Below are positions 26,860 through 44,277 of a DNA stretch of 64,000 nucleotides, one piece after another. The notes below the pieces were generated by a model. That model was given only the letters and a program-made list of their open reading frames with translations. It made no database searches and was not told the DNA's origin. Position numbers and translations under genes: made by a program. The stretch covers positions 5,146,001 through 5,210,000 of the forward strand of contig OY783207.1 in NCBI GenBank assembly GCA_963678705.1. Direction: 5' to 3'. The number at the start of each line of letters is the position of its first letter. The first letter of the stretch is position 1. Origin of the DNA: Panorpa germanica. Lineage: Eukaryota > Arthropoda > Insecta > Mecoptera > Panorpidae.

Positions 26860-27924
26860 GTTATTAATTCGTATTTCAGGTACTCATAGTTAAATGTTTC
26901 AATAAATAGTATAATTTTATAGCAATTGCAATTTATAGAGTTGCTGCTTCTCTATTTTTTCTACATATAACATATAAAAGGAATTTATTAATATAAAAAG
27001 AAAGTGAACAACAAAATAATTTGATTTAACCTAGAACTAACAGTCAGTCAATAAAAATAACAGCCATCTGCCAACGATTTAATTCGCGTGATAATGAAAT
27101 ATTCTCAATTAACATTCACCGTGCATACGTCAGACATTTACATTTACATTTAATTTGTAAACCAATCAGAGCCTTTCACGACTTTATTTACCTTCATGCT
27201 AAATTACTTCACAGATCTAGAGCAATATTAATGCATACAATAATTTTCTGCTATCAATATCTTAATTGCGATACGATAAATGTTTCCAACCATTAGACAC
27301 GGCAATAAAAATGATTAAATTTAAGCATGTAACATGCTCACAGCTTCTGTGTGTAATATAAATTTTAGATTAAGATATATTTAGTGATAGGACTTTGACT
27401 TTGATATAAGAGGCGAACTAGAAAGTGGCGCTTTTTATTTTTCTATATTTTACCCGTTTATTCATTGGATTATTTTTTCTTACGAACAAAAACTCTTTTT
27501 GTTTTGTACACAAACGAACCAAATAAGAAGACAGTACATACTTTGCTAATTATAATTTTCTAACAGCGTTTTTTATTTTGCATATATTTTTCGTTTTATT
27601 ATATTCTAGAATTGAAAATGTGGTCCAATACGGCTCTGTATTAAATATAACATAAAACATGTGATGTTAGACCTACTTTTGTAAATCAGTCTATAGCCAG
27701 TACGTGATGCTATAAACACGATTTCCGTTTGCATCAAGGTAAAGGTAAAATATATAATTTCCATAATTGAACCAGAAGCAAACAATTAATCGAGTTCATT
27801 GTTTATTAACAAAAACTAAAGAAACAAAATAATTATTTAAATATTAGAACATTGTAACGGTTAAAATGAAATTTCAAACATTTGTGTAGTCTATTACTTT
27901 AACTAGAACAAAAATAAATAAAGT
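26860..27924. other. Anonymous AT-rich stretch
   Basis: No feature was recognised. Confidence 0.45.
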
Positions 27925-28545
27925 TATATTGAATCTGTACTAGAAGAGTAATGCGGAAAGGAAGATGATGAAATTCTTGAGGAGAATAAGTGGGTAATAT
28001 TGTATGGTAACAAACAAGTAAAAGGAAGACGGTAATTTGCAATAGAAGATAAGAAGATGCATGCAAAATGGCTAAATAATTCAAGTTATTAGTTATGAAT
28101 ATTTTAAGTTTTCCAAAATTTCTCAGTAAGGTTGAGCAAGGAAGAAGAGGTAACCAAATACTTTGAAGAAGAGGTGGAAAGAATATGATGGATATATGGT
28201 AAGACTGCAGAATCAATAGAGTATCTGAAGGAGGACTGAATGGAGGAAATAAGAATATTGAGAAAATGTTAGTAGAATGAAAATAGAGAAGGAATTGAAT
28301 GTCAGGAATATGGAAGATAAAAATGAACCAAGAAAATAACTTCTTTCCTTTTTCTTTGTACTTTCGCCATCTACCTCTTTCTTGCTTAATCTCCTCTAAA
28401 CAATTTTTCTATTTTGCCTTTTCGAAATACTTACTGGACCAATTGTTACTATTTTTAAAATTGCGCTTCTTAACTCAAGTTTGAGTAATAAATGTAGCGT
28501 AATTGGAAGAATCTAATGCCTAGCGGCAAAAACATTAACTAAATA
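27925..28545 (+). mobile_element. Probable decayed LINE tail (family B)
   Basis: A purine-rich plus strand includes AAGGAGGACTGAATGGAGG-type text. It ends with AATCTAATGCCTAGCGGCAA and ACATTAA, like the 3' end at 52280-52310 (AATGTAGTGCCAAACGCCAA). The coding sense is too decayed to assign. Confidence 0.4.
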
Positions 28546-40238: not shown

Positions 40239-40246
40239 GGTTTGGT

Positions 40247-40318
40247 CAACACCTCCTAAATATACAAAGCCTAACAGCGATTCAGTCAATGGTATGTGAC
40301 GTCATCACTTGTAGTCAT
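40247..40318 (+). repeat. P-like left terminal and subterminal inverted repeats
   Basis: The terminal repeat covers about 36 bp (40247-40282) with few mismatches to the right end. Then come 12 extra bases and a 24-bp perfect repeat at 40295-40318 containing the palindrome TGACGTCA. This end is 3' of the transposase gene. Confidence 0.9.
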
Positions 40319-40635
40319 ATGCTGCTGAGTTCTGCTATCGGTATAAGACAGTTTGTTTGAAAATGTTAGTATCATATAGGGTATTGAACAAAGTTTCTGG
40401 TTACAAATTATTAAGGACTATCATTTTTAAATTATTAATTAGTTTGCAATTAATGAATTGTTTGTTTATGAATTGGTTTTTGTAAGGGTTTTATAATGAG
40501 TAATTAAAGAAGTAAAATACATCGAAAATTTAATTTTAAACTAAGTAACATTTCTAAATCGTAACTTTTCTACAAAAATTAAAATAAATAGACTAGTAAC
40601 ACACATATGCAAAAAAGGAAAATGGTATACCTTCC

Positions 40636-40638
<3 letters not shown>

Positions 40639-40714
<76 letters not shown>
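40639..40714. repeat. (AT)38 microsatellite inside the P-like element
   Basis: An uninterrupted AT run of 76 bases lies between the transposase stop codon and the left terminal repeat. It is likely length-variable between copies. Confidence 0.95.
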
Positions 40715-40719
<5 letters not shown>

Positions 40720-40832
40720 AAAATAATAATAATAAAAATGTATTATATAAAAATATTAACTTTATTTTTCATATATTTCTTTTAACAATATACGAGTGTA
40801 TACAATAACAATACTTATATTTAGAACCATAT

Positions 40833-43767
40833 TTATGTAGTTAGAGTTTGCAATTTTCTTTTCTTATACTGTTTATTATGTTGCAAGTCGTCATTTTTAC
40901 GAGATGATAAATTATTTAACATAATATTAGTTGAAACATGAATTAATAACTTGCATATATAATAGTTGTTATGACACTCGAGATCAAGAAGGTCTTCTAA
41001 CAGCATTTCTTTAACTTCTAAAGTTTTGCATGTAACATCTATTATATATTTTCTCTGATTTTGGAGAGAGAAAAAATCTATATCACGAGACAACTTTTCA
41101 ACTATTAAATAATTGTACATAACTAAATTGACTACAGAAGGTGTCGGACAAATCAGGCCTCCACGATCAAGATTTTTTATTAAATTGTATGACTGGTGTA
41201 AAGAAATTGTCTTATCAATTGTTAAGATTTCTTTACACTTGCTACACTTAATTTTTTTTAAAACAGCATGACAACAATACCCCGCTAAATATGTAATTAC
41301 AGGTAATAATTCTTCTACATTGGCTATATCCATTTCGCTAATTACTACCGATTGCAATGGTGTCATTGCTTCATTAGTATCTTCAATATTATCTAGAATA
41401 TTTTCTGGACATTGTAATGTTTGCACTGTCATTGCTCTATCTTTAATTATTAGTTCTAGTTTTAAATTTGATTGAAGACGTAATTTTTTTTCACACTCTA
41501 GAACTTGTCTCATGGAGATGTGATATTGAGACCCAGCTAATTGCCTATATTTGCCAAATCTATCTTCAAGTAAATCTGTTTGAATTTTACCTGGTAATAT
41601 ATAAGTAAATTTTAGTTCGTCTATGCAATAACGACACAATTCTAACATTCCGTATGTAGTTTGTCTTAACGCATCGTGCGTTTGATTAGTAAAGCAACCA
41701 CTGGAAAAATTCATTTGTTGCCACGCGTCGAGCCAGTCAATAAATTTGTTTAAAAATATAAATTTCTGATCTGATTTGTCCTTTGTTAAAGGTGTCATGT
41801 AAATGTTACTTTTGTGTAAACCTTTGTATACAGTTTTAACGTTCATAACATCCCACCATTTGCAAATGATTGAAATAAAAATTGACGTATCATTATAATA
41901 CTCAATATTATGCAGACGTCCTTTTTCATTCAAACCTTGAACTACAAATTGGTTGAAAATTTTCAACACTAATTTCACATTTTGGCGCTCAAGATTTGAA
42001 GGTGCAATGCTCTTAAATGTTAACCCGTGTGCATAAGAAATGATTGCAGTATTTTCTATTTCATATAACTTTTTAAGAGCAGAAAATGATGCAGTTCTAC
42101 AATTATCACCTTTTTCAAAATCTGGAAAAAACATACACTGTCCAATATTTTTTTGATTTAACCAGTTATTTCTAATGTTTTTAAGAAGATGAACCGAATC
42201 AATTAAATAGAAGAGTGGCCTATTAGCATCCTGGGGATGCTGATAAAGAAAAGATGTTTTATTAGGAACAGCGAAACAACTCATAGCTTTTCTATTTATT
42301 GCATTGTTATCTGTAACAACACAAATGACTTTGAATCCCGCCTTTTCTAACCCTAATATAAGCTTTTTTATCAAATTGTATAAAGTTACATAATTTATTG
42401 TTTTAATTGGTACAATATGAACAACATCTTTAAATTGTGATAATAAACTGGAAACCATAAAAACAAAGGCACTTGTAGCCGCAGTATTTGAATCAAACGA
42501 TGCACCAACAATAGATCCTCCCTTATAGTCAAAAAATGGTTTAATGTGTATCTCATCAATCATTAGTATAACTGTTTTTTCAAAATCTTGAAGATAGCTT
42601 ACTCTATTACTAGCGTACATCAAAAAATTTTTATCATTAGTTTCTAACTGCGGATTTACATGTAAATCATTGCATACTTTCTTCAATGTGTTAGGATGCG
42701 GAAATATAAAATATCCACTTTGTCTTAAGAACTTGTAGGCATGTGGTGAAATTGTATTTAATAAAGAAGCAAATACTAATAACTCAGGGGAATATCTAAA
42801 ATTATTTGTAGGACATATGCACAATTCTATTTGCCCCCTTAAGAAATGTAAAATATTTTCATTCTTGTTGGTTACAACGTCCTTTAACAATTCATCGATT
42901 AAATGAAATGTAGCACTTCTTTTGCATGTCTTACTGTCTGCCTTGATTAAAACAATGGTTTCTAAAATATCAGTAATCTCATTGTAGCTAGTTATTTTCT
43001 GTGGTAATAATTTTGGGCCTATTTTCTTAATTAATGTACTCTTTATAAAGACCGATAATGCCAAATGTTTATCTATTGTAATAGAATATTGAATTAAGGG
43101 TTCAGGTTCAACAGTTAAATAAAAAATGCAAATAAGCTCTTTATCTGGCAAATACTGATGTGACCATCTCTCAGAAACACCGTATTTTCTAATACAATCC
43201 AGAAGGTTGTTTATATTATTAATTCTACGATCGGTATTATAGGCATTTGCTGAATTTATACTGTTTATGATCGCTGAATTCAATAATCTATTTTCTCTTT
43301 CTTCGGCTTTTGAATCGGGAGATACTCTATTTGTTGAAGGGCCCGGCGAGGTGTTGCTTGAGGAGCAATATGCAACACTTTTGGGGTAATTTGAAAATAC
43401 AGAAGGAATAGTTCCTTTCTTTAGTCTTTTGACTTTAAGAGTTGCTGAAACTAGAACACCAGTTTTGTTGTCATACGCTTTCGATTCTGTTTCAATATCG
43501 TCACTTTTGAAATGGAGTTCGCAGACCTGTAAATAGTTTAATATAATAGTCTTGTGATGGTCGGTATGTTTGTCTAATTAATCTTTCACGCATACGTTCT
43601 CATTATCTACTTACTTTGGATTTATTCGACGGAACAAACGCCTTTCGCTGAATAGCAGAACACCATTTCTTTTTTAAGCATTCGTCTTTAGGGAAGCCAA
43701 ATACAGATACTTTTGGACCCGTAGGATAGTTGCCCTTACAAAGTGGAACGCAGCATCTACTTGGCAT
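40833..43767 (-). CDS. P-element/THAP9-like transposase (two exons)
   Basis: Cut-and-paste transposase acting on the element's own ends. Exon 1 is 43767-43615 (51 codons, ATG chosen because MPSRCCVPLC starts the THAP fold). Exon 2 is 43526-40833 (897 codons plus stop), giving 948 residues, close to THAP9-type proteins. Residues 1-90 form a THAP zinc finger: C-x3-C (CVPLC) in exon 1 and C-x2-H (CELH) at the start of exon 2, so the splice restores the C2CH set. Catalytic-type blocks are MIDEIHIKPFFDYKGG (Asp about 375), VVTDNNAINRK (Asp about 457), DSVHLLKNIRNNW (about 494-506) and LEDRFGKYRQL (Glu about 705). A C-terminal zinc-binding-like CSKC lies near residue 812. No premature stop was seen in the translated frame. 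It lies inside matching TIRs, which argues against a domesticated host THAP gene. Confidence 0.92.
43527..43614 (-). other. 88-bp intron of the P-like transposase
   Basis: The donor AAA|GTAAGT (boundary 43615/43614) and acceptor TTTACAG|GTCTGC (boundary 43527/43526) are consensus sites. Splicing joins ...SNKSK to VCELHF in phase 0 and brings the THAP CxxH pair into the protein. Without splicing the frame reads VSR and stops. This short intron splits the THAP domain and could in principle be a point of regulation. Confidence 0.85.
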
Positions 43768-44208
43768 TTTGTTGTCTAATAATTTACACTTTAAGAAGTC
43801 ACTCACTCGACAAACTGGTTATTAATTGTGGAATATTATAATTAGTTTTATATATTACACAGTTAGCTAAAATTCTACACACGTAATGATCAGTAAAACA
43901 TTTACAGCACATACACCATACAAGGTTTTCATACACAACACTAATTTTTAGATTAAAACAGTTTAATGTTTAAACCAAATATAAACAAAAAAAAACACAA
44001 ACACAGTTACTATAAATACACCCTCTTAAGACTGATTATTTATATTTTTAATTAATTATATATTTTATACGATTTTTTTAACCGAAATAACATGGAAGTA
44101 AATACAATACGTAATGCACAGAGAGATTCTAAATTGTACTAAATCAATACCCTTAAAGTACATTTCAAGTATATTTAGGTAGAATTGTGTAAAACATCTG
44201 GTGTTCAG

Positions 44209-44269
44209 ATGACTACAAGTGATGACGTCACAAAATCGCAGTTAGGCCTTGTATATTTAGGAGGTGTTG
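44209..44269 (-). repeat. P-like right terminal and subterminal inverted repeats
   Basis: This is the 5' end relative to the transposase. The 24-bp subterminal repeat at 44209-44232 is separated from the terminal repeat by only a couple of bases here, against 12 on the left. That asymmetry is reminiscent of the unequal end organisation of P elements. Confidence 0.9.
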
Positions 44270-44277
44270 GTTTGGTA

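Follow-up and report, generated by a model that had tools for sequence, protein, structure and literature searches.

A two-exon P-superfamily transposon with a 7-bp target-site duplication and many near-identical copies in the scorpionfly Panorpa germanica

The element and its transposase gene

The window, a stretch of 64,000 nt on chromosome 4 of Panorpa germanica (positions 1–64000), looks gene-poor, with no Rfam family at the gathering threshold and no tRNA predicted by ARAGORN (bacterial code) anywhere along it. Apart from the transposase described below, the only open frame of at least 130 aa is one of 169 aa on the minus strand (27899–28408), which has a low-complexity look. Between 40247 and 44269 lies a whole P-like transposon of 4,023 bp (CAACACC...GGTGTTG) with its gene on the minus strand, the limits of which were set by ends that are kept in copies at different sites and by the comparison of filled and empty sites in a repeat. 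It is bounded by terminal inverted repeats of 36 nt that are 94% complementary to each other and lie 3,951 nt apart, one on the 3' side of the gene (40247–40282, plus strand) and one on its 5' side (44234–44269, minus strand). Comparison of the two ends additionally revealed a subterminal inverted repeat, the 24-mer TGTGACGTCATCACTTGTAGTCAT, at 40295–40318 on the plus strand and at 44209–44232 on the minus strand, so that the terminal and subterminal repeats characteristic of the P superfamily are both present. The element is flanked by two copies of GTTTGGT, at 40240–40246 and 44270–44276.

The gene consists of two exons. Exon 1 (43615–43767, minus strand; 51 aa) provides the start codon and the first part of a THAP domain, while exon 2 (40833–43526, minus strand; 897 aa and the stop codon) encodes the second THAP part (C-x2-H), a helix-turn-helix, an RNase H-like catalytic domain with the DDE residues and a C-terminal part. 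The intron that splits the THAP domain (43527–43614, minus strand; GTAAGT...TTACAG) is 88 bp long here and in all 22 near-full-length copies, and the spliced product would comprise 948 aa. In Pfam searches the THAP C2CH domain scored above the curated cut-off in exon 1 (PF05485, E 9e-08), and the remainder of the domain in exon 2 alone stayed below it (16.9 versus 23.9 bits), the intron joining both parts. The P-type helix-turn-helix domain (PF12017, E 3.6e-07) and the N-terminal domain of TNP-like RNase H (PF21787, E 1.4e-15) were likewise above their cut-offs.

Among solved structures the only match at E 0.001 was the Drosophila P transposase (6p5a, E 7e-12). Counted along this alignment, the residues of 6p5a and of the window protein that face each other are D230/D375, D303/D457, D339/D494, H342/H497, D444/D610 and E531/E705. 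Their roles in the Drosophila enzyme are taken from the parts consulted of two published accounts (PMC7776569; PMC8230255), the latter of which has D444 binding GTP in DmTNP. Although D444 and E531 align, neither the GTP-binding insertion domain (PF21788) nor the C-terminal RNase H domain was detected by Pfam in the window protein; a different P-like copy of P. germanica has both. A structure predicted from the single transposase sequence reached a mean pLDDT of only 32.5, and no conclusion is based on it. The original prediction of a whole P-superfamily transposon with a two-exon THAP transposase, made from this one copy, is supported in each of these points.

Copies, target sites and deleted forms

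As the original prediction had proposed, the whole assembly (464,208,970 bases in 249 contigs) was searched for full-length and deleted copies. The published account of the genome describes a male with 464.2 Mb in 254 scaffolds, chromosome 1 measuring 30.64, chromosome 4 25.36 and the X 47.99 Mb (PMC11464959); contig C21 of the assembly corresponds to the X. The search returned at least 22 dispersed near-full-length copies (L009–L030) as well as internally deleted forms. Outside the AT microsatellite block, and from the ninth base onwards, the 22 copies differ from each other by a mean of 2.7 and a maximum of 7 substitutions (231 pairs, about 3,894 sites compared); L032 enters no difference count, and L031 has no substitution count because its right end is misaligned. 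From the majority sequence they are 0–4 substitutions away, 32 in sum if those shared by several copies are counted in each, and L010, L015 and L027 have none outside the microsatellite block. The spliced frame is open in all 22 copies (948 aa in 16, 944 in five and 943 in one), with no frameshift and a single premature stop, in L013, which costs 5 residues. Five copies (L017, L022, L023, L026 and L028) carry an in-frame deletion of 12 bp, and in L024 one end is short of its outermost 8 bases. A doubled right end of 67 bp is common to L029 and L030; the two copies occupy separate sites and have unlike duplications, and this variant must therefore have moved as well. The main length difference among copies is the AT microsatellite itself (approximately 40636–40725 in the window), which varies widely between otherwise near-identical copies (alignment block of 56–160 bp) and is a candidate for a fast clock of their genealogy.

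Identical 7-mers flank the element in 31 of the 32 copies in which both ends are readable. In the first set both ends could be read by exact match at 26 of 30 loci, and 25 of these 26 have identical flanking 7-mers; six added copies with matching 7-mers are L042, L043, L044, the second copy on contig C19, one on C3 and one on C1, L044 and L035 being two names for one copy, which was among the four loci of the first set whose ends had not both been read. The lone exception is L038, whose right flank is common with that of L036 over 1,500 bp. Three further copies have one unreadable end, L048, L049 and L051 show a single readable end each, and in L050 the right end is changed.

The ends and subterminal repeats named in the original prediction are real; the duplication of 8 bp that it described is not, and has to be corrected to 7 bp. 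The repeated 8-mer GGTTTGGT does exist at the window copy, where it arises from the last G of the element together with a G in the left flank, and the eighth matching base is a chance G. A stagger of 8 bp was rejected since it fits only some of the copies and since the dyad of the target is centred on 7 bp. Across 28 sites the target bases are symmetric about this centre, with G two bases ahead of the duplication (-2) in 25 and C two bases behind it (+8) in 26 of them, a symmetry that is far beyond chance. Centred on 7 bp, the palindrome score reaches 76 out of 196, compared with 37–59 at eight shifted centres, while 2,000 random draws gave a mean of 55.5 and a maximum of 77, so that the observed score was just topped at least once. 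Empty sites are offered by a paralogous repeat (ATGGGCTTGTGTCCTATGTCT / AATGGGCTTGTGTCCTATGTCT). In flanking sequence of L010 and L024 it runs on uninterrupted, and in L031 and L036 the element sits inside it with GCTTGTG doubled, which fixes the ends and the stagger independently. With 7 bp, the duplication falls within the 7–8 bp typical of the P superfamily and differs from the 8 bp of the canonical P subgroup.

These data bear on two alternatives that deny transposition. Vertebrates carry THAP9 genes with homology to the full length of the P element (PMC7776569), and the original prediction had itself named a single-copy insertion or a host THAP9 gene as what would overturn it. That the locus is a domesticated, immobile THAP9-like gene of the host is, however, refuted by at least 22 near-identical copies that are dispersed, have terminal repeats and differ in their flanks; in 21 of these copies both ends could be read, and each of the 21 has its own 7-bp duplication. 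This alternative can be given practically no credence. Copying by segmental duplication does apply to a few cases, namely a pair on contig C2 that has flank sequence in common at both ends and the L036/L038 pair with its one common flank. As a general explanation it is just as firmly refuted and its probability is negligible, since the duplications fit their own flanks in 31/32 copies and since the other common stretches of flank, in a comparison of 28 copies, are partial and 70–95% identical, as expected of interspersed repeats.

Transposition extends to truncated copies. A form lacking about 760 bp occurs four times, as L036, L037 and L038 on contig C12 and once on C3, and three of the four have their own duplications (GCTTGTG, GATCAGC and ACTCAGC), the fourth being L038. 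Another deleted form is present twice on C19, less than 6 kb apart and in opposite orientation, with the duplications ACTGTTG and GGTACAC, and this pair looks like the result of local hopping. Identical internal deletions at different sites, each with its own 7-bp duplication, indicate that the deleted forms were mobilised too, and hence that the transposase came from elsewhere. L036 and L038 (chromosome 12, 16.56–16.61 Mb) are identical in one flank over the 1,500 bp and differ in the other flanks, a pattern that suggests ectopic recombination or a duplication through the element.

Diverged relatives, other P-like copies and the X chromosome

Older relatives of the family are present in the same genome. 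By aligned block they are 97% (L044), mostly 98% with one block at 93% (L043), 89–91% (L034) and 82–93% (L048–L051) identical. A recent horizontal arrival from another species, like that of P in Drosophila melanogaster, would account for the very low divergence of the main group; these graded relatives fit a lineage that has long been resident and argue against the need for such a transfer, which appears quite unlikely. One decayed relative (L048:140-985, chromosome 4, around 10.863 Mb) contains seven successive left ends, six of them as tandem units of 141 bp and the seventh longer, an arrangement that resembles the birth of a satellite out of the end of a transposon.

Intact P-like elements had been described in the original prediction as uncommon outside Diptera, a rarity that fits the P. 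germanica genome poorly, since P-like sequences are not rare there. The model of the P RNase-H N-terminal domain gave 150 scored matches among 241 candidates, 36 of which belong to the window family and its near relatives and 114 to other P-like copies, the split being assigned by position. Many of these 114 contain internal stops, and among the matches listed 80 of them lie on chromosomes 1, 2 and 5, with many near the start of chromosome 1, within its first few megabases, and between 6 and 8 Mb on chromosome 5. A search with another P-like family of the genome found 66 matches, the best other copy being 86% identical.

The two groups are distributed differently with respect to the X. Among the matches listed, the window family has 9/36 on this chromosome (p 0.009) and the other P-like copies 3/114, fewer than expected (p 0.002; Fisher test between the groups, p 1.4e-4), and for the full copies the share is 6/22 against 10.3% of the length (p 0.02); all of these statistics are post hoc and uncorrected, and members of one family are not independent of each other. 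As it stands, the excess of the window family on the X is suggestive. One idea is that, if males are XO, X copies might be kept because an excision break on the male X could be repaired only from the sister chromatid. The excess may also be ordinary, since a higher repeat density and low diversity are among the features reported for the X of P. cognata (PMC10715201).

Viral contigs gave 10 pattern matches, none of them a relative. The mitochondrial tRNA order is Ile-Gln-Met, which argues against a ditrysian moth as host. Besides one match on the mitochondrial contig C249, COX1 had 19 matches, including L040 and L041; 17 of the 19 exceeded the cut-off, and the 19 are probably nuclear copies of mitochondrial DNA.

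Interpretation and comparison with known systems

The element is best explained, with high confidence, as a P-superfamily DNA transposon of the cut-and-paste type, autonomous and recently multiplied in P. germanica, with a spliced two-exon transposase gene. This reading is carried by the ends, the 7-bp duplications, the symmetry of the target, the open gene in 22 near-identical copies and the mobilised deleted copies, all of which are shown. As a mechanism, the transposase would be made from the two-exon gene after splicing in vivo, its THAP domain may bind the subterminal repeats as putative binding sites, the RNase H-like DDE active site would cut the ends of the element, possibly with the use of GTP, and insertion would follow into a loosely palindromic target with a stagger of 7 bp.

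The original prediction had stated that the element may still be active, and the 22 open, near-identical copies together with the mobilised deleted copies support this well while falling short of proof; the family was very recently amplified and is probably still active. If insects mutate at 2.8e-9 per generation, the average copy is roughly 1.3 x 10^5 generations away from the majority sequence, time enough for the burst to have come to an end. A formerly active family, now quiet for a while, whose burst took place up to about 10^5 generations ago and whose copies are fixed, would agree with a divergence that is small and star-like (a total of 32 differences over the 22 copies) and with the window site, for which the assembly contains no empty allele and, beyond the site itself, a single match of 68 bp at 80%. 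Against it stand the absence of frameshifts, the single premature stop and the three copies without substitutions, which leave silence a possible but less probable state. Continued activity can be addressed at once, because the genome and a second haplotype of P. germanica (GCA_963678655.1) are stated to be public (PMC11464959).

Within the known P superfamily the element thus represents a new family, which shares the 7-bp stagger of Galileo and combines it with short repeats and an intron. Searches of open-access papers returned no report of this Panorpa family, and a single review of cricket genomes touched on both Mecoptera and the P element. With an intact, recently amplified P family in Mecoptera, an order closely related to the flies, P-type invasion can be studied over a wider natural range. 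A bolder reading is a P-type invasion in progress outside Diptera, in which an autonomous 7-bp-stagger family would be spreading in scorpionflies, X-biased and hopping locally, and in which its truncated mobile copies could repress it like KP, the truncated P copy that acts as a repressor in Drosophila. This reading is speculative and on balance rather improbable; if true, hybrid dysgenesis and the way it is controlled could be studied in a second natural system.

Compared with the P element of Drosophila melanogaster (DmTNP, 6p5a), the window element has the same THAP domain, P-type helix-turn-helix, RNase H-like DDE domain and D(2)H motif. The CA...TG ends and the mobile internally deleted copies of Drosophila P also recur here, whereas Drosophila P has three introns and the window element one. 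Further differences are the duplication of 7 instead of 8 bp, the length of 4.0 instead of 2.9 kb, the protein of 948 aa and the GTP-binding domain undetected by Pfam. The target of Drosophila P is palindromic, as it is here (PMC4168063).

The stagger is shared with Galileo, for which the sections consulted report a duplication of 7 bp in most copies, one of 8 bp in three D. willistoni copies, and a palindromic target (PMC4168063). The 141-bp tandem terminal units of the decayed relative likewise recall the tandem end repeats of Galileo. In contrast, Galileo has inverted repeats of 0.5–1.2 kb (PMC3688188) and is described as lacking an intron (PMC10990002), neither of which applies to the window element with its 36-bp repeat, its 88-bp intron and another target consensus. 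A well-documented family that has a 7-bp stagger, short repeats and an intron, next to the intronless Galileo, bears on how P transpososomes set their stagger. Zebrafish Pdre2 and THAP9 share the THAP and DDE transposase and the short terminal and subterminal repeats, but Pdre2 is reported to have 8-bp duplications instead of 7 and repeats of other lengths, 13 bp terminal and 12 bp subterminal (PMC7776569; PMC10983969). Finally, the P subfamilies of Anopheles gambiae, as described in the parts consulted, resemble the window element in their short terminal repeats (27–31 bp), THAP transposase and short derivatives, and differ from it in their 8-bp duplications, where the Panorpa family has 7 bp (PMC1562414).
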